NCBI RefSeq assembly: GCF_002192255.1
Contig: NZ_CP021768.1
Span: forward strand, 1,816,001 to 1,880,000
Reading direction: 5' to 3'
DNA: 64,000 bases
Source: Stenotrophomonas sp. WZN-1
GTDB taxonomy: Bacteria; Pseudomonadota; Gammaproteobacteria; Xanthomonadales; Xanthomonadaceae
Shown: in pieces, positions 12,373 through 46,263 of the stretch
Layout: each line of letters begins with the position of its first letter
Position numbering within the stretch: position 1 is the first letter of the stretch
The notes under the pieces: model-generated
Database searches by the model: none
The model's input: the letters and a program-made list of their open reading frames with translations, nothing else
What the model was told of the DNA's origin: nothing
Translations under genes and position numbers: made by a program

Positions 12373-12451
12373 GGGGTTTTTGGTTTGCAGGGCTTGCAGC
12401 CCTGCACCCGCAGAGGCAACGTCAACAGCAGAAGCGGGCTATCCGTGGGTG

Positions 12452-12712
12452 GGCGGGGTGGGTCCGGTTGACGGGGACGCTGCAAGTCCCCCTCCGGGGC
12501 CCGGCCCAGCCGCTGGCGGCTGTGCGTTCGGGCGCTTGCGAAGCGGTGCTTCGCAAGCAAAGCGCCCTCACCCATGTAAGCTCGGTCGCCGCTTGCTCGT
12601 GTGCGCGTTCCTGCGCACACGGCAAGACCGGGGTTGGGCGTCCTGCCCAACCCGCCCGAGGCATGCCTCGGGCCCATGCGGCTCACGCCCCCTCGACCGG
12701 ACCCACCCCGCC
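12452..12712. repeat. Type I long-arm palindrome, copy A1
   Basis: Outer arms of 25 nt (12452-12476 and 12688-12712) pair at 23 positions; the arm core is GGTGGGTCCGGTTGA. Inside are nested perfect palindromes: an 11-bp stem GCTTGCGAAGC (12534-12558), CGTGTGCGC stem (12598-12621), GGGTTGGGC stem (12631-12653) and the 18-bp palindrome CCCGAGGCATGCCTCGGG (12655-12672). The right half is nearly the reverse complement of copy B2 at 31185-31365. A1 carries about 80 bp of extra apical sequence. Confidence 0.85.
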
Positions 12713-12749
12713 TTCGACAGTTTTCCGTGATCTGTCGGAACAGCTCTTG

Positions 12750-12796
12750 GGGGTCAGATCCGTTTTCCGGAGGAAAACGGATCTGACCCCATTTTT
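12750..12796. repeat. Perfect 19-bp dyad inside element A
   Basis: Arms at 12750-12768 and 12772-12790 (each beginning or ending with the GGGGTCAGATCC core) with loop GGA, followed by ATTTTT on the plus strand. It can act as an intrinsic terminator. It is absent from elements B and C, so it looks like a separate repeat inserted into the centre of element A. Confidence 0.75.
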
Positions 12797-12881
12797 GTAT
12801 ATCGATATCTCACAGATGTGTCGACCAAGGTCGTCACCTACCAACAGCCGCAGTTACCAGCAGCCGCGTGAATCTGTCAGA

Positions 12882-12985
12882 GGCGGGGCGGTGTGGGTGG
12901 GCAGGACCGTTGGCGCCATGGATGGCGCCATCGAGCCCCCATGGATGGGTTTACGGCGTGTCCTGCCCACCCACACCGTCCCGCC
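12882..12985. repeat. Type II long-arm palindrome, copy A2
   Basis: Outer arms of 26 nt (12882-12907 and 12960-12985) pair throughout with a single G-T wobble; core GGTGTGGGTGGGCAGGAC. Inside is an inner stem GGCGCC-ATGGAT-GGCGCC and then the conserved string GGGTTTACGGCGT. B1 (30929-31025) has the same interior but different, still self-complementary, arms. Confidence 0.85.
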
Positions 12986-13089
12986 AACTCACGGAAGGCC
13001 GCTTTGGCTTTGCCGTTGCCGTTGCCGTTGCCGTTGCTTGAAGCTTCGGCAGGTGCAGGGCGCAGCCCTGCCGAACCCTCCACCGCGCG

Positions 13090-13095
13090 TAGAAT
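13090..13095 (+). promoter_or_regulatory. -10 box of pdxY, predicted leaderless start
   Basis: TAGAAT lies six bases before the pdxY ATG (13102). If it is the -10 box, transcription starts at or next to the A of the ATG, and no Shine-Dalgarno sequence is present. The -35 region would fall in the end of the composite repeat. uup shows the same spacing. Confidence 0.5.
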
Positions 13096-13101
13096 GCGGG
13101 C

Positions 13102-14010
13102 ATGAGCGAATCCCTCGATACCCACCTGGTCCACGGCCGCCGCCAGCGGCCCGACGGCCCGTCGCCGATCGATGTCATCTCGGTCCAGTCGCAACTTGTC
13201 TACGGTCACGCCGGCAACAGCGCCGCCGTACCGCCGATGCGTGCGCTCGGCGTGCGCGTCGCCGAAATCCCGACCGTGTTGCTGAGCAATGCGCCGTTCT
13301 ACGTCACCACGCGCGGTCGGGTGCTGCCCGCCGACTGGTTCGCCGACCTGCTGCTGGGCACCCACGAGCGCGGCCTGCCGCAGCGGGCGAAGATGCTGGT
13401 GTCCGGCTACTTCGGCAGCACCGCCAACGGTGCCGCCTTCGCCGACTGGCTGGACGATATCCTGCCGGCCTGCCCGCAGCTTCGCTACTGCCTGGACCCA
13501 GTGATCGGTGACACCCACACTGGCCCCTACGTCGAACCGGGCTTGGAAGCGATCTTCGCCGAGCGCCTGCTGCCGCATGCCTGGCTGGTGACGCCGAACG
13601 CTTTCGAACTGAACCGCCTGACCGGCATGCCGGCGCTGGCCGAGGTCGATGCCATCGCCGCCGCGCGCACGCTGCTGGACCGCGGCCCGCACTGGGTGAT
13701 CGCGCACAGCGTGGGCGGCAACCCGGGTGAACTGGTGACTCTGGCGGTCGGCCGCGAGGAGACCTGGCGCTGGACCTCGCCGCTGCTGCCGGTGGATGTG
13801 GCAGGTACCGGTGATGTGCTGATGTCGCTGGCGGTGTCGTTCCTGCTGCGCGGCGAATCGATGCAGCAGGCGATTTCGCGCGCGATTGCCGGCACCCATG
13901 CGGCGCTGGAGGCGACCCTGGACAACGGCTTCGAGGAGTTCGATGTGATCGCTGCCGCGCCGGCGGCGCTGGCCGAAGGAGCGCGCTTCCGCGCTGAACG
14001 CGTGGCATGA
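13102..14010 (+). CDS. pdxY: Pyridoxal kinase PdxY
   Basis: A 302-residue ribokinase-fold kinase. Signatures: VISVQSQLVYGHAGNSAAV at the N-terminus, CLDPVIGDTHTGPYV, NAFELNRLTG, and the catalytic anion-hole motif PVDVAGTGDVLMS (Asp of GTGD is the base). It phosphorylates pyridoxal to pyridoxal 5'-phosphate in the vitamin B6 salvage pathway in the cytoplasm. The stop overlaps the start of the next gene (ATGA, 14007-14010), so the two are translationally coupled. The start is ATG with no visible ribosome-binding site but a -10 box six bases upstream. Confidence 0.93.
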   Translation: MSESLDTHLVHGRRQRPDGPSPIDVISVQSQLVYGHAGNSAAVPPMRALGVRVAEIPTVLLSNAPFYVTTRGRVLPADWFADLLLGTHERGLPQRAKMLVSGYFGSTANGAAFADWLDDILPACPQLRYCLDPVIGDTHTGPYVEPGLEAIFAERLLPHAWLVTPNAFELNRLTGMPALAEVDAIAAARTLLDRGPHWVIAHSVGGNPGELVTLAVGREETWRWTSPLLPVDVAGTGDVLMSLAVSFLLRGESMQQAISRAIAGTHAALEATLDNGFEEFDVIAAAPAALAEGARFRAERVA

Positions 14011-15131
14011 GCGGCCTGGACCCACGCACGCCGCGCATGGTCGGCATCATCGGCAGCGCCGGTGCCTATGGGCGCTGGCTGAGCCGTTTCTTCCAGCAGC
14101 ACCTGCAGCTGCAGGTGATCGGCCACGACCCGGCGGACCCGGACTCGCACACGCCGGAACAGCTGCTGGCGCAGGCCGACGTGCTGGTGTTCTCGGCACC
14201 GATCCGGCACACGCCGGCGTTGATCGCCGAGTACGTGCGGCAATCGGCGGGCCGAGAGCAGGGCAGGCTATGGCTGGATGTGACCTCGGTAAAGGAGGCG
14301 CCGGTACAGGCGATGCTGGCCTCGCAGGCCGAAGTGGTCGGCCTGCACCCGATGACCGCGCCGCCGAAGGCGCCGACGCTGAAGGGCCGGGTGATGGTGG
14401 TCTGCGAAGCGCGGCTGCAGCACTGGCAGCCGTGGGTCGATACGCTGTGCACGGCGCTGCAGGCCGAGTGCGTGCGGGCTACGCCGCAGCATCACGACCA
14501 GATGATGGCGCTGGTGCAGGCGATGGTGCATGCCACCCACTTGGCCCAGGCCGGCGTGCTGCGCCAGTACCAGCCGCAGCTGGGTGATCTGGCCGCGATG
14601 ATGCCGTACCGCTCGGCGTCGTTCGAGTTGGACACGGCGATCATCTCGCGCATCCTGTCGCTCAACCCGGCGATCTACGAAGACATCCAGTTCGGTAACC
14701 CGTACGTGGCGCCGATGCTGGAGCGGCTGGTCGGCCAGCTGCAGGCCCTGCAAGCGCAGGTCGGGCAGGGCGACGACCGTGCGCGCGGTGAATTCCGCGA
14801 ACAGCTGCTGTCAGCCAATCGCAGTGCCTTCGGCGAGCAGGCGCTGGCGGATGGCAACTACACGTTCGAACGCGTGGGCTATCTGCTGGCTGACCTGACC
14901 GAGCGCAACGCGCTGTCGGTGCACCTGCCGGAGGACCGGCCTGGCTCGCTGCGCGAGCTGCTGAACGTGTTCGAGCAGCATGGCATCAGCCTGGCTTCGA
15001 TCCATTCCTCGCGTACGCCCGGCGGTGAAGTGCACTTCCGCATCGGATTCGTGGCCGGCAGCGATCCGGCGGCGATCACCCGGGCGGCAGCCGACGTGGA
15101 CGCCAGCGGCATCGGGCGGGTGCTGGGCTGA
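14007..15131 (+). CDS. tyrA: Prephenate dehydrogenase with C-terminal ACT-like domain
   Basis: A 374-residue protein. The NAD(P)-binding N-terminus is VGIIGSAGAYGRW; catalytic-domain motifs include VFSAPIRHTPALI, WLDVTSVKEAPVQAM and VVGLHPMTAPPKAPTLKGR. The last roughly 75 residues form an ACT-like regulatory domain (HLPEDRPGSLRELLNVFEQHGISLASIHSS). It oxidatively decarboxylates prephenate to 4-hydroxyphenylpyruvate for tyrosine synthesis; the ACT part suggests tyrosine feedback. Substrate choice between prephenate and arogenate cannot be told. It overlaps pdxY by four bases. A 12-bp hairpin begins in its stop codon. Confidence 0.88.
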   Translation: MSGLDPRTPRMVGIIGSAGAYGRWLSRFFQQHLQLQVIGHDPADPDSHTPEQLLAQADVLVFSAPIRHTPALIAEYVRQSAGREQGRLWLDVTSVKEAPVQAMLASQAEVVGLHPMTAPPKAPTLKGRVMVVCEARLQHWQPWVDTLCTALQAECVRATPQHHDQMMALVQAMVHATHLAQAGVLRQYQPQLGDLAAMMPYRSASFELDTAIISRILSLNPAIYEDIQFGNPYVAPMLERLVGQLQALQAQVGQGDDRARGEFREQLLSANRSAFGEQALADGNYTFERVGYLLADLTERNALSVHLPEDRPGSLRELLNVFEQHGISLASIHSSRTPGGEVHFRIGFVAGSDPAAITRAAADVDASGIGRVLG

Positions 15132-15159
15132 ATCCATCCACAGGCGGTGTGGATGGATT
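15131..15159 (+). terminator. Hairpin at the tyrA stop codon
   Basis: AATCCATCCACA (15131-15142) pairs perfectly with TGTGGATGGATT (15148-15159), loop of five. There is no T run after it, so it may stabilise the RNA 3' end rather than terminate strongly. Confidence 0.5.
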
Positions 15160-15247
15160 CTGAGCAAACGTGTGGATAACCCTGCCCAGCCCTTGTCAGG
15201 CAAGGCTGTCAAGATGCTTGGCGAAAAATTGATCACGCCCTTTTTGT

Positions 15248-15359
15248 GCAGTCGAGCCATGCTCGACTGCCCTTGGCAAAAGGCGTGTCGACCAAGGTCG
15301 ACACCTACCAGAGCGGGGTGATACGAAATCCGGTAGCGCCGGGCCATGCCCGGCGAACC
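15248..15359. repeat. Cluster of three SMAG-type hairpins
   Basis: GCAGTCGAGC-CAT-GCTCGACTGC (about 15248-15270), GTGTCGACC/GGTCGACAC with a trailing CTAC (15285-15308, minus orientation) and GTAGCGCCGGGC-CAT-GCCCGGCG (15333-15357). They belong to different stem families but share the GTAG/CTAC end. They lie between convergent genes. Confidence 0.8.
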
Positions 15360-15554
15360 TCAGATCGTCAGTCGCAGTTCGCCGCCGCTGGTAGTGAATT
15401 CGCGGCCATTGCGAACCAGATGACGCCCGTCATCCAGCTCGTAACGCGGCGTGGCTTCGGAGTGATGCCCGCTGCCATTCGCCTCGGGCTTGAACTCGAT
15501 GATGATGTGGCTTTCGCCATTGCTGTCGACTGCAGGGAACTGACGGAACGACAT
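15360..15554 (-). CDS. Small conserved-looking protein of unknown function
   Basis: A 64-residue protein starting MSFRQFPAVDSNGESH and ending GGELRLTI. The start at 15554 is supported by a strong Shine-Dalgarno GGAGGT five bases upstream; a GTG one codon earlier is too close to it. No signal peptide, membrane helix or cysteine is visible; the composition is polar, with segments that could form a small beta sheet (HIIIEFKPEA, RYELDDGRHLV). I do not recognise the family. It lies 70 bp after an ABC exporter gene on the same strand. The good ribosome-binding site and normal codon use argue that it is real. Confidence 0.7.
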   Translation of the reverse strand: MSFRQFPAVDSNGESHIIIEFKPEANGSGHHSEATPRYELDDGRHLVRNGREFTTSGGELRLTI

Positions 15555-15624
15555 CACGTACCTCCTTCAGCGGATGCTGCTGATGCGAGGCCAGCTTGGT
15601 CCGGCCGATGTTAGCCGGCCGTCA

Positions 15625-17397
15625 TCAATCGATGAACTGCAGTCGTGCCAGTTCAGCGTACAGTCCGCCTTCGGCCAAAAGCTGGGCATGGGTGCCTTCG
15701 GCGACGATACGACCCTGGTCCATCACCACGATGCGGTCGGCCTTGAGCACGGTGGCGAGGCGATGGGCGATGACCAGCGTGGTGCGACCGGCCATCAGCC
15801 GCTCAAGCGCCTGCTGCACGCCATGCTCGCTCTGCGCATCCAGCGCGCTGGTGGCTTCGTCCAGCAGCAGGATCGGCGCATCCTTCAGCAATGCGCGGGC
15901 AATCGCCACGCGCTGCTGCTGGCCACCGGACAGGCGCGCACCGCGTTCGCCCAGCTCACTGTCGTAGCCCTGCGGCAACGCACGCAGGAAGCCATCGGCC
16001 TCGGCCGCACGCGCGGCAGCTTCGACCTCGGCGTCACTGGCCTGCAGGCGGCCGTATCGGATGTTGTCGCGCGCACTGGCCGCGAACAGCGTCGGCTGCT
16101 GCGGCACCAGCGCCAGCTGCGCGCGCAGCTCGGCCGGATCGACCTGGCGCACGTCGATGCCATCCACGCAGATGCGGCCGCTGGCCGGATCGTGGAAGCG
16201 CAGCAGCATCGACAGCACCGTGCTCTTGCCCGCGCCCGACGGGCCGACCAGGGCCACGGTCTCGCCAGGGCGCACGTGCAGGTTGAAGTGGTCCAGCGCG
16301 GCCTGGTCCGGGCGCTGCGGGTAGTGGAACACCACGTCGTCGAACTGGATGTCGCCGCGCAGCGGTTGCGGTAGTGCGTGCGGCTGCGCCGGCGCACGGA
16401 TCTCGATGTCTTCCTGCAGCAGCTCGCCAATGCGGCCCATGCCACCGGCGGCACGCTGCAGTTCGTTCCACACTTCGGCCAGCGCACCCACCGAGCCACC
16501 GCCGATTAGCGCGTACAGCACGAACTGGCCCAGCGTGCCGGCACTGAGGCGCCCGTCGATGACATCGTGCGCGCCCAGCCACAGCACGCCAACGATGGCA
16601 CCGAATACCAGCAGGATGGCGCTGGCGGTGACCAGTGACTGCGCACCGATGCGACGGCGCGCGGCACTGATGGCATCGCCCAGTGCCTTGTCGAAGCGTC
16701 CGCGCTCATAGGGCTCGCGTGCATGCGCCTGCACCGTGCGCACGGCGCCCAGCGTCTCGCTGGCCAGGCTGTTGGCATCGGCGATGCGGTCCTGGCTGCT
16801 GCGTGCAACCGTGCGCAGCTTGCGCGCGCCGATGATGATCGGCAGCACCGCCAGCGGGATGCCGAGCAGCGACCATGCCGCCAGCCGCGGGCTGGTGACG
16901 AACAGCATGGCCAGGCTGCCGACCACGGTGACGCTGCTGCGCAGGGCGACCGACATGGTCGAGCCGACCACGCTGCGCAGCAGTTCGCTGTCAGCGGTCA
17001 GGCGGGAGACCAGTTCGCCGCTGCGGCTGCGGTCGTGGAATCCAGCACCGAGCTGGATCAGGTGTGCGTACAGGCGGCTGCGCAGGTCGGCGACGACCTT
17101 TTCGCCCAGCAGCGACACGAAGAAGAACCGTGCGGCCGTGGCCAGTGCCAGCACCACCGCCACCAGCATCAGCAGGGCGAACGCACGGTTGATCTGGCCA
17201 CCGCTGGTGAAGCCGTGGTCGATCATCTGCTTCACGGCGGGGGGCAGGCTCAGCGTGGCGGCTGAAGACACCGCCAGCGCCAGCAGCCAGGCGGTGAACA
17301 GCCCGCTGTGGCGGCGCACGAACGGCCACAACGTCCGCAGGCTGCCGAGGCGGCGCAGCGGTGGGGTCGAGGCGGGGGCGTCGTCCTTGTCAGTCAT
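15625..17397 (-). CDS. ABC exporter, fused membrane and ATPase domains (MsbA/BmrA type)
   Basis: A 590-residue half-transporter. Six transmembrane helices occupy about residues 30-310. The nucleotide-binding domain has Walker A GPSGAGKST, signature LSGGQQQRVAIARALL, Walker B ILLLDEATSALD and the switch histidine in LVIAHRLATV. It works as a homodimer in the inner membrane exporting lipid or drug-like compounds; the substrate cannot be told. It is not clearly the essential lipid A flippase, since lpxK is not adjacent. The start ATG at 17397 overlaps the yigZ stop by eight bases (ATGACTGA), which favours this start and suggests coupling. Confidence 0.88.
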   Translation of the reverse strand: MTDKDDAPASTPPLRRLGSLRTLWPFVRRHSGLFTAWLLALAVSSAATLSLPPAVKQMIDHGFTSGGQINRAFALLMLVAVVLALATAARFFFVSLLGEKVVADLRSRLYAHLIQLGAGFHDRSRSGELVSRLTADSELLRSVVGSTMSVALRSSVTVVGSLAMLFVTSPRLAAWSLLGIPLAVLPIIIGARKLRTVARSSQDRIADANSLASETLGAVRTVQAHAREPYERGRFDKALGDAISAARRRIGAQSLVTASAILLVFGAIVGVLWLGAHDVIDGRLSAGTLGQFVLYALIGGGSVGALAEVWNELQRAAGGMGRIGELLQEDIEIRAPAQPHALPQPLRGDIQFDDVVFHYPQRPDQAALDHFNLHVRPGETVALVGPSGAGKSTVLSMLLRFHDPASGRICVDGIDVRQVDPAELRAQLALVPQQPTLFAASARDNIRYGRLQASDAEVEAAARAAEADGFLRALPQGYDSELGERGARLSGGQQQRVAIARALLKDAPILLLDEATSALDAQSEHGVQQALERLMAGRTTLVIAHRLATVLKADRIVVMDQGRIVAEGTHAQLLAEGGLYAELARLQFID

Positions 17398-17986
17398 CCT
17401 GGTCGTCGTCTTGTATGCGGATACGGTCACGGGTGGCGTCGCGCAGGCGGATTTTCAATGCATCGACCTGATCGGCCGGCAATTCGACCCGCAGGCACAC
17501 GCCATTGGCATCGAACTGTTCATCGCGCTTTTCGGCGCCGAAGGTGGGCAGGGTGGCGTGCAGGGTGCCCAGATCCTCGAAGCCGGCCAGCAGCTGCAGC
17601 CGGGCCATCGCCACCAGCGGCAAGCGCGGGGCGGTACGCAGGCATTCGGCGGCAGCGCCGCCGTAGGCGCGCACCAGGCCACCGGCGCCGAGCTTGATAC
17701 CGCCGAACCAGCGCGTGACCACCACCATCACCCGGTCGAAGCCCTGGCCGTCGATCGCAGCCAGGATCGGCCGGCCAGCGGTGCCGGCGGGCTCGCCATC
17801 ATCGCTGGAGCGGTAGTCCTGGCCGTGCCGGTAGGCCCAGCAGTTGTGGGTCGCATCGGCTACGGCCACCTGCTGCAGGAACGCCAATGCTGCCGCGGCG
17901 CCATCGATCGGCGCGGCATGGGCAATGAAGCGGCTGTGTTTGACTTCCAGCGTGTGGCTGACCGGCTGGGCGAGGGTATCGGGCAT
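17390..17986 (-). CDS. yigZ: YigZ/IMPACT-family protein
   Basis: A 198-residue protein of the UPF0029/IMPACT family. Diagnostic motifs are KHSRFIAHAAPI, ATHNCWAYR, SSDDGEPAGTAGRPIL and VVTRWFGGIKLGAGGLVRAYGGA. The N-terminal domain is ribosomal-protein-like; the C-terminal domain is related to EF-G domain V. The bacterial function is unsettled; the eukaryotic relative IMPACT affects translation control. ATG 17986 is preferred, with an in-frame ATG three codons upstream as an alternative. It overlaps the ABC exporter gene by eight bases. Confidence 0.9.
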   Translation of the reverse strand: MPDTLAQPVSHTLEVKHSRFIAHAAPIDGAAAALAFLQQVAVADATHNCWAYRHGQDYRSSDDGEPAGTAGRPILAAIDGQGFDRVMVVVTRWFGGIKLGAGGLVRAYGGAAAECLRTAPRLPLVAMARLQLLAGFEDLGTLHATLPTFGAEKRDEQFDANGVCLRVELPADQVDALKIRLRDATRDRIRIQDDDQDD

Positions 17987-18026
17987 CCCCGCCATTCTAC
18001 GGGGTTGCCGGAGGTCGCTGTCCGCT

Positions 18027-19675: not shown

Positions 19676-19817
19676 GGCGTGGAAGCGGCTACGGACAGCA
19701 GGAAAAACGTACGGGCGCACGATTCGGGGTTTACGGGCTTCCATTGCCCCCCGGGTGGCGCGCTATGCTCGGCGGCTCAGGGGAGGCGACGCACAGACGG
19801 CGCCAAGAGATTGTCAT

Positions 19818-30842: not shown

Positions 30843-30928
30843 GTTGGCAGGGCTTGCAGCCCTGCACCCGCTCAATGCAACGGCAACGGCAACGTCAAAG
30901 GCCGGAGCTGGCTTTCTGCTGGTTGGGC

Positions 30929-31025
30929 GGGGCCATGTGGGTTGGTAGGACACGCCGTAAACCCGTCCTTGGGGCTCGATGGCGCCATCCATGGCGCCAA
31001 CGGTCCTGCCAACCCACATGGCCCC
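30929..31025. repeat. Type II long-arm palindrome, copy B1
   Basis: Arms of 23 nt (30929-30951 and 31003-31025) pair fully with one T-G wobble; core GGCCATGTGGGTTGG. Compared with A2, several arm bases differ, and the opposite arm carries the matching changes. The interior (inner stem GGCGCC around ATGGAT, then the TTTACGGCGT string) is nearly that of A2 in reverse complement. Confidence 0.85.
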
Positions 31026-31184
31026 ACCTCCGACAGATTCCGGCGGCTGTTGGTGGGTGCCGACCTTGGTCGACACATCTGCCGGATATCGATAATCAAA
31101 CTGGAATCAGATCTACCGTGTCGACCAAGGTCGACACCCACCAGAGCAGAATGCGGTCCTGACAGATCGCGGAAGTCTGTCGAA

Positions 31185-31365
31185 GGCGGGGTGGGTCCGG
31201 TTGAGGGGGCGTGAGCCGCATGGGCCCGAGGCATGCCTCGGGCGGGTTGGGCAGGACGCCCAACCCCGGTCTTGCCGTGTGCGCAGGACTGCGCACACGA
31301 GCAAGCGGCGACCGAGCTTACATGGACGTACTTGCAGCGTCCCCCTCAACCGGATCCACCCCACC
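31185..31365. repeat. Type I long-arm palindrome, copy B2
   Basis: Arms of 25 nt (31185-31209 and 31341-31365) pair at 23 positions; core GGTGGGTCCGGTTGAGGGGG. The interior is the reverse complement of the right half of A1, including CCCGAGGCATGCCTCGGG and the GTGTGCGC stem, but lacks about 80 bp of A1's apical part. Confidence 0.85.
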
Positions 31366-31575
31366 GACCCGCAGGAAACCAGCTTTTGCTGTTGCTTCGG
31401 CACTGGCTTTTAGCGGGTGCAGGGCGCAGCCCTGAAAAAAGAAACCCCACCCTACGCCAGCGTCGGTTGTGCAATCTTCCCCCGCGCACTACGATCCTGC
31501 GGTTCGCGCGCGCAGGCGCGCACCCGTATTCCTGCTGAGCGCCCCGTGCGCCGCATCTGCCAACCCGAGGTATCC

Positions 31576-32872: not shown

Positions 32873-32873
32873 G

Positions 32874-37791: not shown

Positions 37792-37804
37792 GGCGGCCAG
37801 GTGC

Positions 37805-38805: not shown

Positions 38806-38831
38806 TCCGTCTGCTACCGTTGGGTAGCCAG

Positions 38832-38863
38832 AACGCCGGAAGCGAGAGCTTCCGGCGTTTTTT
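38832..38863 (+). terminator. Intrinsic terminator of the cold-shock gene
   Basis: AACGCCGGAAGC (38832-38843), loop GAGA, GCTTCCGGCGTT (38848-38859), then a T run. A perfect 12-bp stem. Confidence 0.94.
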
Positions 38864-38880
38864 ATTGCCCGCCGTTTTTT

Positions 38881-38940
38881 TGTAGAGTCGAGCCATGCTC
38901 GACTGTTCTCAAAGCCAGTCGAGCATGGCTCGACTCTACA
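38881..38940. repeat. Perfect inverted pair of SMAG-type hairpins
   Basis: Arms of 25 nt at 38881-38905 and 38916-38940 are exact reverse complements around a 10-nt spacer. Each arm is itself a hairpin (GTCGAGC-CAT-GCTCGAC) with the TGTAGA/TCTACA ends outward. The GST-like gene starts 55 bp downstream. Confidence 0.88.
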
Positions 38941-38994
38941 AAGGGCATGCACTGCGCGCGGTACGATGCGCATCTCCCCAAGGGATCACCCCCC

Positions 38995-39684
38995 ATGCGC
39001 ATCGTCCACCACCTGGAAAACTCCCGTTCGCTGCGCGTGCTGTGGATGCTGGAGGAGCTGGCGTTGGACTACGAACTGCGCCGCTATCCGCGCGATCCGA
39101 AGACGCTGCTGGCGCCGCCGGAACTGCGCAACGTGCATCCGCTCGGCAAGTCGCCGGTACTGCAGGATGGTGAGCTGGTACTGGCCGAGTCCGGCGCGAT
39201 CCTCGACTACCTCGCGGACCGTTACGACACGCAACGCCAGCTGTCGCCGTCACCGATGCCGGCCGACGGGGCCGAGCGCATCGCCTACCGCTACTGGCTG
39301 CACTACGCCGAAGGCTCGGCGATGCCGCCGCTGCTGCTGACCCTGGTGATGGGTCGCATCCGCAACGCGCCGATGCCCTTCTTTGCCCGCCCGATCGCGC
39401 GCAGCATCGCCGACAAGGCCGAGCGCGGCTTCATCGGTCCACAGCGGCGCCTGCATCTGGACTGGATGGAGCGCCGCTTGTCCGAAAGCCCGTGGTTTGC
39501 CGGCGAGCGCTTCAGTGCGGCCGACATCCAGATGAGCTTCCCGATCCAGGCCGCTGCCGCGCGTGGCGGTGGTCTCGACGACAAGCCGGCGCTGCGCGGC
39601 TTCCTCAAGCGCATCGGTGAACGCCCGGCCTACCAGCGTGCCGAGGCCCACGGCGGCCACCTGCAGGCGCTCAGCGGCAATTGA
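38995..39684 (+). CDS. Glutathione S-transferase-like protein
   Basis: A 229-residue GST. The thioredoxin-fold N-terminus begins MRIVHHLENSRSLRVLWMLE, where the Ser of SRS is a plausible glutathione-activating residue. GKSPVLQDGELVLAESGAIL carries the cis-Pro and the ES motif binding gamma-glutamyl. The all-helical C-terminal domain includes WFAGERFSAADIQMSFP with the N-capping box. Substrates are unknown. It is followed after 32 bp by selO, another thiol/redox-related gene. Confidence 0.9.
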   Translation: MRIVHHLENSRSLRVLWMLEELALDYELRRYPRDPKTLLAPPELRNVHPLGKSPVLQDGELVLAESGAILDYLADRYDTQRQLSPSPMPADGAERIAYRYWLHYAEGSAMPPLLLTLVMGRIRNAPMPFFARPIARSIADKAERGFIGPQRRLHLDWMERRLSESPWFAGERFSAADIQMSFPIQAAAARGGGLDDKPALRGFLKRIGERPAYQRAEAHGGHLQALSGN

Positions 39685-39716
39685 GGCGGGCGGTCGTCGC
39701 CCCCATCTTCAGCACC

Positions 39717-41282
39717 ATGGATACCGACAGCCCCCGTTTCGACAACCGCCTGCTGCATACCCTGCCGGGCGACCCCGAATCCGGCCCGCGCCGGCGCGAC
39801 GTGCTGGGCGCAGCCTGGTCGCCAGTGATGCCGACCCCGGTGACGGCGCCTACACTGTTGGCCTGGGCGCCGGACGTCGCCGCGATGCTTGGCTTCGATA
39901 CCGCTGAGGTCGAGAGCGAAGGCTTCGCGCAGGTGTTTGGCGGCAATGCACTGTACGCCGGCATGCAGCCTTGGGCGGCCAACTACGGTGGTCATCAGTT
40001 TGGTCACTGGGCTGGCCAGCTCGGCGATGGCCGTGCGATCTCGCTGGGTGAACTGGTCGCGCCGGATGGCCGCCACTGGGAGCTGCAGCTGAAGGGGGCC
40101 GGCCCCACGCCTTATTCGCGCGGCGCCGATGGGCGCGCAGTGCTGCGCTCGTCCATCCGCGAATTCCTGTGCAGCGAAGCGATGCACCAACTGGGCGTGC
40201 CGACCACGCGCGCGTTGTCGCTGGTCGGCACCGGCGAGGACGTGGTGCGTGACATGTTCTACGACGGCCATCCGCGCGCCGAGCCTGGCGCCATCGTATG
40301 CCGGGTCTCGCCGTCGTTCCTGCGCTTTGGTTCCTTCGAACTGCCGGCCTCGCGTGGCGAGACCGCCCTGCTGCAACAGCTGGTGGACACCTGCATCGCC
40401 CGTGATTTCCCCGAACTGGAGGGGCAGGGGGAGGTGCTGTACGGCGACTGGTTCGCGCAGATCGCAGTGCGCACCGCCGAGATGATCGCGCACTGGATGC
40501 GCGTCGGCTTCGTGCACGGCGTGATGAACACCGACAACCTGTCCGTGCTCGGCCTGACGCTGGATTACGGTCCCTATGGCTGGGTCGAGGACTTCGATCC
40601 GGACTGGACACCGAACACCACCGACGCACAGGGTCGTCGCTACCGCTTCGGCACCCAGCCGCAGGTGGCTTACTGGAACCTGAGCCGATTGGCGCAGGCG
40701 TTGTCGCCGTTGTTTGCTGATGTGGCACCGCTGCAGGCGGGCCTGGCGGCCTACCAGTCCACCTTCGTGGCCTGCACGCGCCGTGATGCCGCAGCCAAGC
40801 TGGGCCTGGCCGCGGCCGACGATGACGACCTGCAGCTCTACCAGCGCTGGCAGCAGCTGATGCAGGACGGTGCCATGGACATGACCCTGGCCTGGCGCGC
40901 GCTGATGCGCCTCGATCAGGCGGCACCGGATGCGGCGCTGCTGGACGCGGTGTACTACGACGAGGCGCGGCGACAGGCAGTGCAGGCACCGTTGCAGCAG
41001 TGGCTGCAGGACTACTCGGCGCGCCTGCGCAGCGATCCGTTGTCGGCTGGCGAACGCCTGGCGAAGATGACAGCGGCCAATCCGCTGTACGTGCTGCGCA
41101 ACTGGCTTGCCCAGGAGGCGATCGACCGCGCAGAGCAGGGCGACCTCGGCGGTGTGCATGCGCTGCAGGACGTGCTGCGCGATCCATACACCGAGCGCCC
41201 GGGGCTTGAACACTTCGCCGGCAAGCGCCCGGCGTGGGCCGACAACCGCGCCGGCTGCTCGATGCTGTCCTGCAGTTCCTGA
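39717..41282 (+). CDS. selO: Protein adenylyltransferase SelO (YdiU/UPF0061)
   Basis: A 521-residue pseudokinase-fold protein. Family motifs: NYGGHQFGHWAGQLGDGRAI, LQLKGAGPTPYSRGADGRAV, VGFVHGVMNTDNLSVLGLT and TIDYGPYGW-like LDYGPYGWVEDFDP. It ends CSMLSCSS, so Cys occupies the place of the selenocysteine found three residues from the end in animal SelO. SelO transfers AMP to protein Ser, Thr or Tyr residues, with redox-related targets. ATG 39717 was chosen by family alignment. Composite repeat element C begins 12 bp after the stop. Confidence 0.95.
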   Translation: MDTDSPRFDNRLLHTLPGDPESGPRRRDVLGAAWSPVMPTPVTAPTLLAWAPDVAAMLGFDTAEVESEGFAQVFGGNALYAGMQPWAANYGGHQFGHWAGQLGDGRAISLGELVAPDGRHWELQLKGAGPTPYSRGADGRAVLRSSIREFLCSEAMHQLGVPTTRALSLVGTGEDVVRDMFYDGHPRAEPGAIVCRVSPSFLRFGSFELPASRGETALLQQLVDTCIARDFPELEGQGEVLYGDWFAQIAVRTAEMIAHWMRVGFVHGVMNTDNLSVLGLTLDYGPYGWVEDFDPDWTPNTTDAQGRRYRFGTQPQVAYWNLSRLAQALSPLFADVAPLQAGLAAYQSTFVACTRRDAAAKLGLAAADDDDLQLYQRWQQLMQDGAMDMTLAWRALMRLDQAAPDAALLDAVYYDEARRQAVQAPLQQWLQDYSARLRSDPLSAGERLAKMTAANPLYVLRNWLAQEAIDRAEQGDLGGVHALQDVLRDPYTERPGLEHFAGKRPAWADNRAGCSMLSCSS

Positions 41283-41365
41283 GGGTGGGTGTTGGCAGGG
41301 CTGCGCCCTGCACCCGCAGAGGCCAGGTCAACGGCCAGAGCAAAAGCTGGATTCCCTGGCTTGGC

Positions 41366-41460
41366 GGGGCGGTGTCGGAGTGCGGGGACGCCGCAAGTAC
41401 GTCCCTGTGGCTTGGCAGCCGCATCCATGCGGCTGACACCCCGCACTCCGACACCGCCCC
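41366..41460. repeat. Type II long-arm palindrome, copy C1
   Basis: Perfect 22-bp arms (41366-41387 and 41439-41460), core GGTGTCGGAGTGCGGGG, different from A2 and B1. In the head-to-tail reading the inner stem is AGCCGC-ATGGAT-GCGGCT, again around ATGGAT. Confidence 0.85.
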
Positions 41461-41626
41461 ACCTCCGACAGATTCCCGCTGCTGCGGGTGGGTGTCGACC
41501 TTGGTCGACACGGTAGATCCACGCCATGCGTGGATGCTCTTCGTTCAATCTTCGAAATACTCGATTTCGATTGAGATTCATCCACGCATGGCGTGGATTC
41601 GCGACAGATCGCAGGAATCTGTCGAA

Positions 41627-41728
41627 GGCGGGGTGGGTCCGGTTGCGGGAGTGTCCGCGGCATGGATGCCGCGGCCAAGCCCCCATGGACGGGTTTACGG
41701 CGTCTCCCGCAACCGGACCCACCTCGCC
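41627..41728. repeat. Type I long-arm palindrome, copy C2
   Basis: Arms of 25 nt (41627-41651 and 41704-41728) pair with one G-T wobble; core GGTGGGTCCGGTTGCGGGAG. The interior is short like type II: inner stem CCGCGGC-ATGGAT-GCCGCGG, then GGGTTTACGGCGT. Confidence 0.85.
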
Positions 41729-41866
41729 ATCCCACGGAATGCCGCTCTTGCCGTTGCCTTGGCTTGAAGCCTCTGCAGGTGCCGGGCGCAGCCCGGCCGA
41801 CACCCCCATCAGGCAGGCGGCGCCCGGAACAGGTACCCTATGCCGCCATCAGATAGCCAATGTGAC

Positions 41867-42403
41867 ATGACCGACGCCATCGTCGCTCCGCAGTGGGCCT
41901 CCCGCCTGCGCGACATCGCCGACTTCCCCAAGCCCGGCATCCTGTTCAAGGACATCATGCCGCTGCTCGCCCACGGCGAGGACTTCCGCGGCGCGATCAC
42001 CGCGATGGCCGACCGCTGGCGCGACCAGAAGCTGGACGCAGTGGTCGGCATCGAATCGCGTGGGTTCATCCTCGGTGCCGCGATGGCACTGGAGCTGGGC
42101 GTCGGCTTCGTACCGGTGCGCAAGCCGGGCAAGCTGCCGGGCCAGGTGCTGCGCGAGGAATACACGCTGGAATACCGCAGCGACTGCATCGAAGTGCACG
42201 CCGATGCGCTGCCGGCGGGCGCCCGCGTCGCGATCATCGATGACGTGCTGGCCACCGGCGGCACGCTGGTCGCTGCGATGTCGCTGGTGCGCCGCCTGGG
42301 CGTCGACGTGGTCGGTGCCGGCGTGCTGGTCGAGCTCGACGGCCTCGGCGGCCGCGCCCGCTGGGAAGCGGAGCTGCCACTGCACACCGAACTGGTGTTC
42401 TGA
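41867..42403 (+). CDS. apt: Adenine phosphoribosyltransferase
   Basis: A 178-residue type I phosphoribosyltransferase. Signatures: IADFPKPGILFKDIMPLL, VVGIESRGFILGAAMA, FVPVRKPGKLPG and the PRPP-binding loop VAIIDDVLATGGTLVAA. It makes AMP from adenine and phosphoribosyl pyrophosphate in purine salvage. The start ATG 41867 has no strong Shine-Dalgarno (GTGA only). The gene is flanked by composite element C upstream and by a cluster of SMAG-type repeats downstream. Confidence 0.96.
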   Translation: MTDAIVAPQWASRLRDIADFPKPGILFKDIMPLLAHGEDFRGAITAMADRWRDQKLDAVVGIESRGFILGAAMALELGVGFVPVRKPGKLPGQVLREEYTLEYRSDCIEVHADALPAGARVAIIDDVLATGGTLVAAMSLVRRLGVDVVGAGVLVELDGLGGRARWEAELPLHTELVF

Positions 42404-42415
42404 TCGAAGGGCGGG

Positions 42416-42567
42416 TGCCAACCAAGGTTGGCATCTACCAGAGCGAATGGCCGGGAGCCGGTAGTTGCCAACCTGGGTTGGCATCGCCTTTCGCAACCGA
42501 CGCCATGGACGGGCCAACCAAGGTTGGTCACTACCAGGTCAGATCGTTGCCAACCGTGGTTGGCAAC
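42416..42567. repeat. Cluster of four SMAG-type hairpins with GCCAACC stems
   Basis: Four hairpins share the stem GCCAACC/GGTTGGC: 42416-42438 (ending CTAC), 42461-42483 (starting GTAG), 42513-42535 (ending CTAC) and 42546-42567. Orientation alternates, forming a BIME-like array between the convergent apt and dbpA genes. Confidence 0.85.
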
Positions 42568-42577
42568 GCTGCTTCAA

Positions 42578-43954
42578 TCACATCATCCGTACGCGGAAAC
42601 GACGGCCCTTGATCTTGCCGGCTTCCAGCCTGGCTACGGCCTTGTTGGCCTGCTCACGCGCGATCGCCACATAGGAGCGGGTCGGGAAGATCGCGATCTT
42701 GCCGATGTACTTGCTCGACAGCCCGGCGTCGCCGGTCAGTGCGCCGAGGATGTCGCCCGGGCGCAGCTTGTCGGTCTTGCCGCCGTCGATCCGCAGGGTG
42801 CGCATCGCCGCCTGCGGCAGCTCGGCCGGGCGCGAGGTCGCCAGCGGCGTCTTCTGCCAGTCCAGTGGCTGCCCCATCTGCGCTTCAATGGCTTCGGCGC
42901 GGGTCTTCTCGCGGCCGGCCACCAGGCTGATCGCCAGGCCACTGGCACCGGCACGACCGGTACGGCCGACGCGGTGCTGGTAGCTCTCCACGTCGGTCGG
43001 CAGTTCGTAGTTGATCACCGCCGCCAGTTCTTCCACGTCCAGGCCGCGTGCGGCCACGTCGCTGGCCACCAGCACGTTGCAGCTGCGGTTGGCCAGCAGC
43101 AACAGCACTTCCTCGCGGTCGCGCTGTTCCATGTCACCGTGCAGGGCCAGTGCGGAGAAGCCGAACTGCTGCAGCGAGTTGGCCACTTCGTCCACGTCCT
43201 TGCGGGTGTTGCAGAACACCACCGCCGATTCCGGCGTGTACTTCAGCAGCAGGCCGGCAAGCGCCTTCTGGCGATGCGCCGGCTCCACCTCGCAGAACAT
43301 GTGGCGGATGGCCGGGGCCTGGTCGGCGCCTTCCACGGTCACTTCCACTGCGTCGCGCAGCAGGTCACGCGCCATGGCGCGGATGCTGTCGGGGAAGGTG
43401 GCGGAGAACAGCAGGCTCTGCCGGTCCCTGTGGGTGCGGCCGGCGATCTCGCGGATCGGCTCTTCGAAGCCCATGTCGAGCATGCGGTCGGCCTCATCCA
43501 GCACCAGCGCGCGCACCGCGCCCAGGTTCAGCGCACGCTTGCGTGCCAGCTCCTGCACGCGGCCGGGCGTGCCGACCACCACATGCGGATCGTGGCCTTC
43601 CAGCGATGCCAGCTGCGGTCCCAGCGGCACGCCGCCAACCAGCAGCAGCAGCTTCAGGTTGGGAATGCCAGTGGCCAGCTTGCGGATCTGCTTGCCGACC
43701 TGGTCGGCCAGTTCGCGGGTCGGGCACAGCACCAGCGCCTGCACGCGGATCAGGCTGGGGTCGATGGCCTGCAGCAGGCCCAGGCCGAAGGCGGCGGTCT
43801 TGCCGCTGCCGGTCGGTGCCTGTGCGATCACATCGCGGCCATCGAGGATGGCCGGCAGGCTCTGCGCCTGCACGGGGGTAAGGGTGGTGTAGCCGAGGGC
43901 ATCCAGGCCGGGCTGCAGGGCCGGGCTCAGCGGCAGGGTCGAGAAGTCAGTCAT
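42578..43954 (-). CDS. dbpA: ATP-dependent RNA helicase DbpA
   Basis: A 458-residue DEAD-box helicase. Motifs: Q motif YTTLTPVQAQSLP, Walker A APTGSGKT, PTRELA, VGTPGR, VLDEADRMLDMGF, SATFP, ARGLDV and HRVGRTGRAG. The C-terminal roughly 75 residues (LRIDGGKTDKLRPGDILGAL, VAIAREQANKAV) are the DbpA RNA-binding domain, which targets hairpin 92 of 23S rRNA in large-subunit assembly. Length equals that of E. coli DbpA. It is monocistronic and ends next to a SMAG array. Confidence 0.95.
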   Translation of the reverse strand: MTDFSTLPLSPALQPGLDALGYTTLTPVQAQSLPAILDGRDVIAQAPTGSGKTAAFGLGLLQAIDPSLIRVQALVLCPTRELADQVGKQIRKLATGIPNLKLLLLVGGVPLGPQLASLEGHDPHVVVGTPGRVQELARKRALNLGAVRALVLDEADRMLDMGFEEPIREIAGRTHRDRQSLLFSATFPDSIRAMARDLLRDAVEVTVEGADQAPAIRHMFCEVEPAHRQKALAGLLLKYTPESAVVFCNTRKDVDEVANSLQQFGFSALALHGDMEQRDREEVLLLLANRSCNVLVASDVAARGLDVEELAAVINYELPTDVESYQHRVGRTGRAGASGLAISLVAGREKTRAEAIEAQMGQPLDWQKTPLATSRPAELPQAAMRTLRIDGGKTDKLRPGDILGALTGDAGLSSKYIGKIAIFPTRSYVAIAREQANKAVARLEAGKIKGRRFRVRMM

Positions 43955-44011
43955 GGCGCATTGTACCCGTCCGCGCGGCCGCTCCTTGCCCCGGGACCGG
44001 CATGCTCCTGC

Positions 44012-45091
44012 TCAGCCCAGCACCGCCAGCACGCCCTGGTGGATCGCCAGCCCACCGAACAGCAGCCAGGCAAACAGGATCAGCGCCAGCAGCAGTGGCT
44101 TCAGCCCGGCCTGGCGCAGCGCCGAGACGTGGGTGGTCAGGCCCAGCGCGGCCATCGCCATCGCCAGCAGCACGGTATCCAGCTGCACCAGTCCGGCCTG
44201 CAGGCCGGCTGGCAGCAGATGCAGCGAGTTGAACCCGGCCACCGCCACGAAACCGAACGCAAACCAAGGCACCACGATGCGCGCCTTGCTGCCGTCGGCG
44301 CTGGCCCTGCCGCCACGCGCCAGCCACAGCGACAGCGCAACCAGGAACGGCGCCAGCAGCATCACCCGCACCATCTTGGTGATCACTGCCGTATCAGCCG
44401 CCGCTTCGTTGACCGCGCGGCCGGCCGCCACCACCTGTGCCACTTCATGCACCGTCGCACCGGTGAACAGGCCGTACTGCTGCGCGTCCATCGCCAGCCA
44501 GCCGTGCGACTGCACCAGCGCATACAGGGCGGGATACAGGAACATCGCCAACGTGCCGAACACCACCACCGTCGACACCGCCACCGTGACCTGCGCAGCA
44601 CGGCCGCGCACCACTGGTTCGGCGGCCATCACCGCCGCCGCGCCGCAGATCGCACTGCCCGCGCCGATCAGCATGGCCGCTTCGCGCTCCATCTTGAACA
44701 CGCGCACGCCCAGCCAGCAGGCCAGCCCGAAGGTGCTGGCGACCACCAGCACGTCCATCAGTACGCCGGTGACGCCGACATGGCCGATGTCCTGGAAGGT
44801 CAGGCGCAGGCCATACAGCACGATGCCGGCGCGCAGCAGCCAGTGCTTGGAGAAGCCAACACCGGCCGCGCTGCTTGGTGCCAGCCGTGGGTAGAACGTA
44901 TTGCCGACCACGATGCCGGCGACGATAGCCACGGTCAGCGCGCTCAGGCCGTGCGCCTGAAGCCAGGGCAGCTCGGCCAGGTACAGCGACGCCGCCGCGA
45001 TCAGGCCCACCAGGAGAAGGCCGGGCAGGCGCGGCTGCCAGCGTTGGCGCAGGGCGGGCAGGGACCAGGGGGAGAGAGCGGGGGCGTTCAT
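44012..45091 (-). CDS. YeiH/UPF0324 family membrane protein (putative sulfate exporter family)
   Basis: A 359-residue membrane protein with about ten hydrophobic helices. Family stretches: AIVAGIVVGNTFYPRLAP, GIVLYGLRLTFQDIGHVG, LIGAGSAICGAAAVMAAEPV and GATVHEVAQVVAAGRAVNE. The family is named putative sulfate exporter in annotations, though direct proof for this branch is lacking. It diverges from a CysB-like LysR gene, matching the yeiE-yeiH pairing of E. coli, which suggests control by that regulator. Confidence 0.87.
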   Translation of the reverse strand: MNAPALSPWSLPALRQRWQPRLPGLLLVGLIAAASLYLAELPWLQAHGLSALTVAIVAGIVVGNTFYPRLAPSSAAGVGFSKHWLLRAGIVLYGLRLTFQDIGHVGVTGVLMDVLVVASTFGLACWLGVRVFKMEREAAMLIGAGSAICGAAAVMAAEPVVRGRAAQVTVAVSTVVVFGTLAMFLYPALYALVQSHGWLAMDAQQYGLFTGATVHEVAQVVAAGRAVNEAAADTAVITKMVRVMLLAPFLVALSLWLARGGRASADGSKARIVVPWFAFGFVAVAGFNSLHLLPAGLQAGLVQLDTVLLAMAMAALGLTTHVSALRQAGLKPLLLALILFAWLLFGGLAIHQGVLAVLG

Positions 45092-45192
45092 GGCAGGGCA
45101 GGACTGGAGTGATTCGGCAAGCGTGCGCCTCTGTCGCTGACCTGTAAAACGAATAATATGGGTGAAACCTACCTATCAAGCGAGTAAATGCC

Positions 45193-46068
45193 ATGCGCCT
45201 GACCTTGCGCCAGCTGCAGGTCTTCGTCGCCATCGCCGACCACGGAAGCACCACTGCCGCCGGCCAGGCCATCGCCCTCTCGCAGTCGGCCAGCAGCGCC
45301 GCCCTGCAGGAGCTGGAGGCGCACTTCGGCACCCCGCTGTTCGACCGCATCGGCCGTCGCCTGGCCCTGAACGGGCACGGCCGCGCGCTGCTGGAGCCGG
45401 CGCGCACGTTGCTGGTCAACGCCGCCGACCTGGAGCGGCAGCTGGCCGCTGGCGGCGACCCGTCGCAGGGTGCACCGCTGCGGCTGGTGCTGGCGGCCAG
45501 TACCACCATCGGCAACTACCTGTTGCCACCGCGCATCGCCGATCTGCTGCGGCAGGCGCCGCAGGCCGAAGTCGACCTGCGCATCGACAACAGTGCCGGC
45601 GTGGTTGCCGCGGTGCAGCGCCTGGACGTCGACGCCGGCCTGATCGAAGGCCCGTGCCACGAGCGTGGCCTGCAGGTCACCGCCTGGCAGCAGGACCCGC
45701 TGGTGATCGTGGCTGCCGCCGATGCGCCCGCGCGCTGGTCGCTGGACGAACTACGCCGCGCTCGCTGGCTGCTGCGCGAACCGGGCTCCGGCACCCGCGA
45801 AGCGGTCGAACAGGCGCTGTTGCCGCATCTGCGCGGCTTCGCCCAGACCCTGCAGCTGGGCAATACCGAAGCGATCAAGCAGGCCGCAATCGCCGGTCTC
45901 GGCCTGGCCTGTCTTTCGCGCCACGCACTGGAAGAGCCGCTGGCCCTGGGACGCCTGCGCGTGCTGGAGACCCCGCTGCCCGCCCTGCAGCGCACCCTGT
46001 GGCTGGTGCGCCACCCCGGCAAGCAATGGCTGCCGGGGTTGCAGGCGTTGTTGGGGGAGGTGGGGTAA
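45193..46068 (+). CDS. LysR-family regulator divergent from the YeiH-type gene
   Basis: A 291-residue LysR regulator. The winged helix is MRLTLRQLQVFVAIADHGST followed by TAAGQAIALSQSASSAALQE and HFGTPLFDRIGRRLALNGHG. The effector domain has LAASTTIGNYLLPPRIADLL and REPGSGTREAVEQALLP, typical of the YeiE/CysL group of sulfur-related regulators. It lies 101 bp from the divergent yeiH-like gene and most likely controls it. The TAATAT-like sequence near 45155 could be part of either promoter. Confidence 0.9.
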   Translation: MRLTLRQLQVFVAIADHGSTTAAGQAIALSQSASSAALQELEAHFGTPLFDRIGRRLALNGHGRALLEPARTLLVNAADLERQLAAGGDPSQGAPLRLVLAASTTIGNYLLPPRIADLLRQAPQAEVDLRIDNSAGVVAAVQRLDVDAGLIEGPCHERGLQVTAWQQDPLVIVAAADAPARWSLDELRRARWLLREPGSGTREAVEQALLPHLRGFAQTLQLGNTEAIKQAAIAGLGLACLSRHALEEPLALGRLRVLETPLPALQRTLWLVRHPGKQWLPGLQALLGEVG

Positions 46069-46119
46069 GCGATCAGATTCCCCGTCGATTCCATCCATCG
46101 ACAGTCCTTGCAGCGCTCC

Positions 46120-46263
46120 TCCACGCATGGCGTGGATCTACTGCGTCGACCAAGGTCGACACCCACCAGAGCAGAATCCCGCCCCGCCATCCCTCAGAAA
46201 ACCGGCTTTGGTTATTGCTTCGGCCGTTGCCGTTGCCTCCGCGGGTGCCGGGTGCAACCCGGC
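46120..46263. repeat. Decayed composite element D (SMAG hairpins plus one tail)
   Basis: In the 223-bp gap before uup: a TCCACGC-type SMAG hairpin ending CTAC (46120-46142), a GTCGACC hairpin followed by CACCCACCAGAGCAGAAT (46144-46178), a remnant of a right arm (CCGCCCCGCC near 46179-46188), a GCCGTTGCCGTTGCC stretch and the tail hairpin GCCGGGT-GCA-ACCCGGC (46247-46263). No long-arm palindrome is left. The tail is that of elements A-C. Confidence 0.7.

Follow-up and report, generated by a model that had tools for sequence, protein, structure and literature searches.

In a 64,000-nucleotide (nt) stretch of the genome of Stenotrophomonas sp. WZN-1 (here the window; bases 1,816,001-1,880,000 of a 4.51-Mb single-contig genome), three intergenic composites, A, B and C, each contain two long-armed palindromes, one of type I and one of type II as told by their arms. 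We found that these composites belong to a real, large and structured repeat family, which is partly known through its core. The unit of this family is a variable palindromic stem of about 20-30 base pairs (bp) around a conserved 52-nt core, and the core forms two hairpins that, on one strand, carry the loop sequence A-N-GGA-Y, nearly invariant save for N. These two RsmA-like loops, the best-conserved part, escaped an earlier note on this DNA in which the composites were first drawn. Our tentative reading, in which our confidence stays somewhat short of even, is that the composites are REPIN-like inverted doublets that have long been inherited in place and that carry putative RsmA-type sites, usually behind stop codons, which may serve as dispersed decoys or local sites. 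Among the records listed, S. maltophilia E301 was the closest relative in one marker gene (95% protein identity).

Units were recognised with a covariance model, R1, built from 33 units of this genome, and the later alignments (A2 and A3) lean to the R1 structure. On the strand that reads a unit from its tail (the tail-first strand), the loop of hairpin 1 reads R-TCC-N-T; in this genome, TCC was present in 131 of 131 units and the T after N in 130 of 131, while N was free (A76 C40 G3 T12). The loop of hairpin 2 reads ATCCAT, and its CCA was found in 124 of the 125 units in which it was filled. The opposite strand of both loops, here the GGA strand, reads ANGGAY and is almost always closed by a C-G pair. 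R1 was run on 66 of 75 marker-gene loci, and 13 of the 75 entered alignment A3. The same pattern held outside this genome: across 66 distinct units, drawn from 13 other genera and from other Stenotrophomonas, the TCC of hairpin 1 was invariant (66/66) with a varying N (A38 C9 G7 T12), and hairpin 2 kept TC in 66/66 and the second C in 65/66. The arms were unrelated between genera and still self-complementary. Within this genome, 36 of 39 pairs within the arms varied on both sides and 96.7% of 5198 cells paired; the covariation score, from an alignment fitted to the model structure, was 0.528, compared with 0.152 after shuffling and 0.045-0.070 with the partner slid. Some cores are expanded by added hairpins, and in those caught by pattern TCC(T) was kept in 5/6 and 8/8 loops; the sixth loop of the former reads AGGACT, which may be this loop seen from the opposite strand. 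The heads of the units mostly read [CT]GACAG. As judged from the aligned letters, a unit is a strictly self-complementary stem with two predicted hairpins that bear C[ANGGAY]G loops on the GGA strand.

The genome search that the earlier note had in view, with a covariance model of the unit, bore out a dispersed family. R1 detected at least 138 units in this genome (best 150 of 5292 candidates scored), a lower bound, as the expanded unit A1 was missed, and it matched 41 of 149 family genomes and 16 of 54 genera; with B as a DNA query, 135 pieces of this genome were matched. The number of candidates scored per genome was 150 for this genome and for loci of other genera, 24 in the family survey and 14, with stricter filters, in the RF01731 survey described below. 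The units fell into 89 clusters, and all 49 two-hit clusters were ordered plus then minus, that is, head to head. Three of these had wide gaps (877-1447 nt), and two singletons had an expanded partner that R1 had missed. The final set comprised 48 close pairs, every one head to head as the earlier note had proposed for A, B and C, and 44 units without a detected close partner. The type of the expanded type I units at L107 and L112 and the position of the partners in L111 and L126 were set manually.

The earlier note had further proposed that type I and type II form a fixed composite that is kept or copied as one unit. By a strict arm test, 27 of the 48 pairs joined type I with a non-I unit, 21 lacked type I and none was I-I, compared with 3.7 I-I pairs expected (P 0.005); the unit copies are related by descent, and the P-values given here overstate their independence. 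Type I thus never met itself, and its pairing with another type was confined to little more than half of the doublets. The absence of I-I pairs, together with the order of type II on the left and type I on the right at sites B and C wherever both palindromes were detected, agrees with a fixed composite. The 21 pairs without type I do not agree with it, nor do the 44 units for which no close partner was detected and which include 18 of type I, nor does the variation of one palindrome between strains while the other type stays. Additionally, avoidance of similar arms accounts for the missing I-I pairs: among the 39 pairs in which both arms were measurable, none had arms that were 90% alike, against 4.2 expected (P 0.012). 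The sampled text of Di Nocera 2013 (PMC3733652) states that most repetitive extragenic palindromic (REP) families prefer heterodimers and proposes that this protects them from the removal of long hairpins. We adopted this explanation, by which long and nearly perfect inverted repeats tend to be lost; it accounts for the absence of I-I pairs better than co-copying does. At site C in L169 and L191, the centre was deleted and half of type II was fused to half of type I (by eye), an accident that matches such loss. We therefore regard a fixed composite copied as one unit as very improbable. Departures from the simple doublet were also seen. At site B of L183 (3908-4486), one unit occurs as three direct tandem copies rather than as a head-to-head pair, and L073, L277 and L278 (genus g18) contain alternating +-+- unit arrays with a period near 293 nt, similar to bacterial interspersed mosaic elements (BIMEs). 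In genome G082 (L289-L308), the copies are near-identical, and behind nearly all of them stands another long palindrome of a different kind, whose loop is of CATGGATG type; the copies are often preceded by decayed half-units, and this looks like a recent expansion (by eye).

To describe the history of the sites, we compared the loci of B and C among related strains, using the name S. maltophilia complex for our own grouping of L163-L180 and L225. At site B, 15 of 16 measured loci of this complex were 600-857 bp long and held at least one palindrome; L170 had 211 bp and no palindrome, and S. cyclobalanopsidis L185 also had a palindrome. At site C, 9 of 11 loci of the complex measured 506-656 bp, among them L165, which had lost the left palindrome, and the other two, L169 and L174, were reduced. 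In 13 more distant Stenotrophomonas loci, site C measured -6 to 114 bp; the flanks of these 13 short sites are too diverged for a target duplication to be read. Both palindromes were detected in ten loci at B and seven at C besides the window, with type II left and type I right throughout. The type II palindrome differed between strains at both sites, with both arms changed together, which speaks against simple copying of the composite as a whole. In the S. rhizophila group, site B was filled in L186 and L187 and emptied in L231, L182 and L192, and the emptied sites keep pieces (by eye). These comparisons of sequence indicate that the copies remain in place over long periods and decay through deletions, and that strains differ from one another in entire palindromes. 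In the same-genus genome G029, R1 found no unit. One locus with a Stenotrophomonas-like secF-fabV region, L181, is titled Bacillus subtilis SK7B5, a probable contamination or mislabelling.

Upon comparison with Rfam at gathering scores, no match passed anywhere in the window. With an E-value limit, the GGA strand of C2, the type I unit of C (41620-41735, plus strand), matched RF01731, TwoAYGGAY, at 39.2 bits (cut-off 43). This genome gave four RF01731 matches, one over the cut-off (46.9 bits) and three at 38.1-39.6 bits (best 150 of 282 candidates); the survey with stricter filters gave none here. The units share with TwoAYGGAY an outer stem and two GGA-loop hairpins on one strand, and one own unit exceeds the cut-off. 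They differ in that the other matches are lower, N is often not Y, the stem sequences are others and at least 138 own units occur as inverted doublets with tails. The opposite (TCC) strand of the C2 region matched RF02770, Ysr224, at 35.8 bits compared with a cut-off of 70. The Ysr224 core aligned to the same 52 nt as RF01731 on the opposite strand (window 41620-41760), and Ysr224 is filed as a small RNA of that TCC strand; from these alignments, the two entries appear to describe opposite strands of one core. Ysr224 also matched a Pantoea plasmid at 38.9 bits. A 54-nt core used as query hit nine Pantoea agglomerans plasmids with 70% coverage, and phages gave no match. Other Rfam matches, mostly to microRNA families, fell far short of their own thresholds and were not considered further. 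In Rfam, TwoAYGGAY and CsrB belong to one clan, CL00106 (control: CsrB of E. coli K-12). In the sampled text of Weinberg 2010 (PMC2864571), it is given as a probable RNA, not cis-regulatory, from human gut, gamma-Proteobacteria and Clostridiales. The earlier note was familiar with SMAG repeats but not with the larger unit; the core of this unit is a relative of TwoAYGGAY, and the doublet family does extend beyond SMAG, being larger than it and often holding REP- or SMAG-type hairpins inside.

RF01731 was found in 12 of 185 gammaproteobacterial genomes, over the cut-off in 10, with at least 14 copies in three genomes and 1-10 in the others; the motif is thus multi-copy in several other gammaproteobacterial families. 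Among the matches listed, a hand count gave six opposite-strand neighbours less than 300 nt apart (in G305 and G233), all ordered (-,+) with GGA strands outward. In two other families or more, the motif therefore forms dispersed inverted doublets of its own; G172 had no close neighbours among its listed matches (hand count). For folding, we used the best RF01731 locus of each of six genomes of other families; five of these loci were foldable. L317-L319 showed C[ATGGAC]G or C[ACGGAC]G in one predicted hairpin and an ACGAC loop without GGA in the other, L320 had GGA in both predicted loops (a GGA triloop and AGGGAT), and L322 had an AGGGAT loop with ATGGAC held in an alternative pairing. A broader proposal, which we consider unlikely as a whole, would see in TwoAYGGAY not a single regulatory RNA but the central part of a whole class of gammaproteobacterial repeats, dispersed inverted doublets with diverging GGA strands; in Xanthomonadaceae, hundreds of putative RsmA docking hairpins behind genes would then act as a genome-wide sponge or as a network of local control where no CsrB-type RNA reached its cut-off, and the head-to-head order would ensure a GGA unit on either strand.

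ANGGA in a hexaloop closed by a C-G pair is a CsrA/RsmA site, as in sites obtained by systematic evolution of ligands by exponential enrichment (SELEX) and in hcnA-type sites. The units show this arrangement, with ANGGA in hairpin loops and more than one site per unit. A CsrA/RsmA gene was found in 15 of the 15 genomes examined, and CsrB over its cut-off in none of the 15, with weak sub-cut-off matches in two. The CsrB/RsmZ decoy RNAs are products of dedicated RNA genes with repeated GGA-loop hairpins. GGA-loop hairpins are common to these RNAs and the units, but the units are dispersed behind many genes.

The mismatches of the units revealed a strand asymmetry. On the tail-first strand, A·C mismatches exceeded G·T mismatches 41:13 in 125 units of this genome; when the unit ends were set slightly differently, the ratio was 47:11 in 130 of its units. 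Other loci, many from other Stenotrophomonas, gave 50:6 in 78 units. Since an A·C mismatch on this strand is a G·U or G·T wobble on the GGA strand, the GGA strand appears, from this sequence bias, to be the one kept foldable. It folded more stably in 116 of 134 units, a count that is not independent of the mismatch count. By site, the G·U-type bias on the GGA strand was 16:3 between convergent genes and 7:0 between divergent genes. If our preferred reading holds, the GGA strand would be read by the cell as RNA, the two loops of a unit would be putative sites for the RsmA/CsrA dimer, and the 3' ends of messenger RNAs (mRNAs) that cross an element would act as dispersed decoys or local RsmA sites. 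Because the GGA strands point away from the centre of the doublet, a transcript from either side would contain one GGA-form unit. The family itself may have been spread by a mobiliser of single-stranded DNA hairpins. Of these steps, the predicted binding of RsmA is the most probable, and a benefit to the host is less certain.

Several observations weigh against this proposal. At co-directional sites, the asymmetry was 9:5 where the GGA strand is sense and likewise 9:5 where it is antisense, and lone units in such sites showed no preference for GGA in sense (13 vs 12, hand count). The bias and the lone units are thus indifferent to gene direction, which argues against a simple mRNA role and allows a single-stranded DNA stage; it is mainly for this reason that our confidence is limited. 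Only one of the four RF01731 matches in this genome exceeds the cut-off of 43, and when 20 loci of this genus and others were scored against RF01731, none passed at gathering. Among the RF01731 matches listed, two pairs depart from the outward arrangement: an opposite-strand pair with roughly 350 nt between its members is in the reverse order, and a pair separated by 297 nt lies on the same strand (G237). In L317-L319, three of the five foldable RF01731 loci from other families, just one of the two loops contains GGA; a second GGA site is therefore not a universal property of the units. Finally, CsrA is also present in G029, which belongs to the same genus and in which no unit was found.

Some of these observations fit selfish DNA instead, that is, a non-autonomous inverted pair like a miniature inverted-repeat transposable element (MITE) or REPIN, whose single-stranded hairpin, with its two inner hairpins, is recognised by an HUH/RAYT-type transposase or another enzyme and whose likeness to CsrA sites is coincidental. 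We regard this as a serious possibility, second to the role proposed above. The indifference of the strand asymmetry to the direction of neighbouring genes and the loss of one GGA loop in some relatives are consistent with it, as are the fixed head-to-head order of many dispersed copies, the near-identical copies in G082, the +-+- arrays in L073 and the empty C sites in other Stenotrophomonas. The search for a mobiliser gave it less support. A PF01797 search found four Y1 transposase genes in this genome, three flanked by REP-like inverted repeats and one (L031, RAYT-type) by GGGGTCAGATCCCTTT inverted repeats; no unit lay within 1.5 kb on either side of any of the four. In 25 PF01797 loci from 12 other genomes, the only unit matches had E-values of 2.4e-5 (L255) and 0.08 (L244), and G029, in which no unit was detected, also has Y1 genes. 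A RAYT as the mobiliser was set aside on these counts. We also set aside an autonomous copy with a gene between units: the wide-gap pairs L075 and L076 hold ordinary reading frames, one like 2-keto-3-deoxy-6-phosphogluconate (KDPG) aldolase and one unassigned (by eye), and the third wide-gap pair, L074, was checked for inverted repeats only. Carriage by plasmids or phages was likewise set aside, since a search with B yielded nothing in plasmids and one with C nothing in phages; both results count against selfish spread. Moreover, a loop code read in DNA has no obvious cause to free exactly the N of ANGGA. REP- or terminal inverted repeat (TIR)-type sequence was found by pattern match in the centre of 35 of the 48 composites; one central sequence matches REP class SM4 and another resembles SM1/SM2, as compared with the sampled listing of Nunvar 2013 (PMC3686654). 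Many composites thus harbour REPs, but there is no sign that these REPs drive their movement.

The placement of the elements was analysed with gene calls from a purpose-made codon-usage predictor. None of 92 elements overlapped a predicted gene. The flanking genes were convergent for 35 elements, co-directional for 48 and divergent for 9, compared with 19, 125 and 47 of 191 other adjacent gene pairs in the same loci. The earlier note had placed the composites between co-directional plus-strand genes, which is correct for A, B and C but does not describe the genome, where convergent sites are enriched (35/92 vs 19/191). Where a tail faced a gene end (90 tails), the palindrome began a median of 80 nt past the stop codon; 59 of the 90 tails had a perfect tail hairpin, which began 0-17 nt past the stop in 56. 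YPAL of Yersinia, likewise a palindromic insertion closely 3' of stop codons, may be comparable in this respect. Such placement suits a structural 3'-end element, namely a bidirectional barrier or terminator and mRNA stabiliser, as proposed for REPs; the conserved core would then serve a ribonuclease or RNA folding rather than RsmA. The excess at convergent and the shortage at divergent sites, the tails mostly directly behind stops and the very stable folds agree with this, and REPs lie mainly 3' of coding regions in the sampled text of Di Nocera 2013 (PMC3733652). We nevertheless consider it improbable as the whole account: it leaves unexplained both the ANGGAY loops kept in freely changing stems and the strand asymmetry, and no T-run follows the outward tails of A and C (by eye).

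We then compared the units with known repeat systems. With REPs, REPINs and BIMEs and their RAYTs, as far as covered by the sampled texts of Nunvar 2010 (PMC2817692), Nunvar 2013 (PMC3686654) and PMC3733652, the units share intergenic inverted pairs, heterodimers and a position near 3' ends, and as high-copy intergenic inverted doublets they are REPIN-like. In contrast, they lack a GTAG or CGTC tag, are about 100-260 bp long, contain an internal two-hairpin core and flank none of the four Y1 genes, and they fall outside REP classes SM1-SM13 as given in the sampled part of PMC3686654. SMAG, according to the sampled text of Roscetto 2008 (PMC2613905), is a short GTAG-tagged palindrome with the consensus GTAGTGCCGGCCGCTGGCCGGCA that makes up about 0.5% of the K279a genome; such GTAG-tagged REPs form the central hairpins of many composites (pattern match), whereas the untagged units are a separate family. 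The central GGGGTCAGA hairpin of A fits the GGGGWSAS motif given for TIRYT TIRs of S. maltophilia in the sampled text of PMC3733652 and starts like the repeat flanking L031, but the big palindromes are without this motif, the comparison being with the TIR consensus only. In the literature sampled, through an incomplete search on which we base no claim of priority, the doublet build, the abundance in several Xanthomonadaceae and the RsmA-type loops were not linked.

The finding joins three things that the literature sampled treats separately: the long intergenic palindromes of Stenotrophomonas and related genera, TwoAYGGAY, an Rfam motif with no function assigned, and Ysr224, an opposite-strand small RNA entry from Yersinia. 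If the RsmA reading is true, the genome would itself supply a master regulator with well over 100 decoy sites; a global regulator would be buffered by a repeat family able to spread, and models of the RsmA network would change in this group. If RsmA does not bind, the conserved loops would point to a hairpin-reading mobiliser. Under either reading, the elements account for several assembly breaks seen.

The layout of the composites in the window is given in Table 1. The plan and coordinates of A, B and C, including A as the mirror of B and C, held when palindromes and folds were checked. Tail hairpins stand at both outer ends of each composite, and the CTGTC/GACAG heads are turned inward. In the RNA fold, the outer tails and (CAACGG)n-like stretches of both sides also paired, so that each composite forms one fold-back of 503-685 nt with inner branches, in which a palindrome, the central hairpin(s) and the second palindrome follow one another. 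Composite C has selO and apt as its neighbouring genes. The remnant D was confirmed as such, and R1 found no unit in it.

Table 1. Composites A, B and C and remnant D in the window (positions of the window; strand, that of the GGA form).
Feature	Positions	Strand	Remarks
A left tail hairpin	12387..12405	.	14 nt 3' of the stop codon of a major facilitator superfamily (MFS) gene (gene ends 12372)
A1, type I palindrome, expanded core	12452..12712	-	25-nt arms, 211 nt inside; GGA form on minus
A central hairpin GGGGTCAGATCCGTTTTCC	12750..12790	.	first 12 bases = inverted repeat at RAYT-type gene L031
A2, type II palindrome	12882..12985	+	26-nt arms, 52 nt inside; plus-strand ATGGAT loops 12918-12923, 12941-12946
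A right tail hairpin	13055..13071	.	
B left tail hairpin	30847..30865	.	54 nt 3' of secF (ends 30792), past a terminator-like hairpin
B1, type II palindrome	30929..31025	-	23-nt arms, 51 nt inside; plus-strand TCC loops 30965-30970, 30987-30992 = GGA loops on minus
B central inverted repeat TGGTGGGTGYCGACCTTGGTCGACAC	31051..31143	.	likeness to REP classes SM1/SM2
B2, type I palindrome, expanded core	31188..31362	+	22-nt arms, 131 nt inside; plus-strand loops with GGA 31253-31257, 31285-31290, 31322-31327
B right tail hairpin	31419..31434	.	
C left tail hairpin	41295..41311	.	12 nt 3' of selO stop (41282)
C1, type II palindrome	41366..41460	-	22-nt arms, 51 nt inside; plus-strand TCC loops 41401-41406, 41423-41428 = GGA loops on minus
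C central REP-type hairpins GTCGACCTTGGTCGAC; ATCCACGCCATGCGTGGAT	41495..41598	.	ATCCACGCCATGCGTGGAT = REP class SM4
C2, type I palindrome	41627..41728	+	25-nt arms, 52 nt inside; plus-strand loops ATGGAT 41662-41667, ATGGAC 41685-41690
C right tail hairpin	41781..41797	.	
D, remnant	46060..46275	.	tail hairpin and REP-type hairpins kept, both palindromes lost

The draft contigs L168, L172 and L173 (10,315, 10,664 and 10,104 bases) begin and end in or beside the composites of sites B and C, and several unit matches in draft genomes sit at contig ends; the repeats seem to break short-read assemblies. We also observed more short REP-type inverted repeats in the window, at 38879-38942, 42416-42567, 48224-48298 and 3320-3398.

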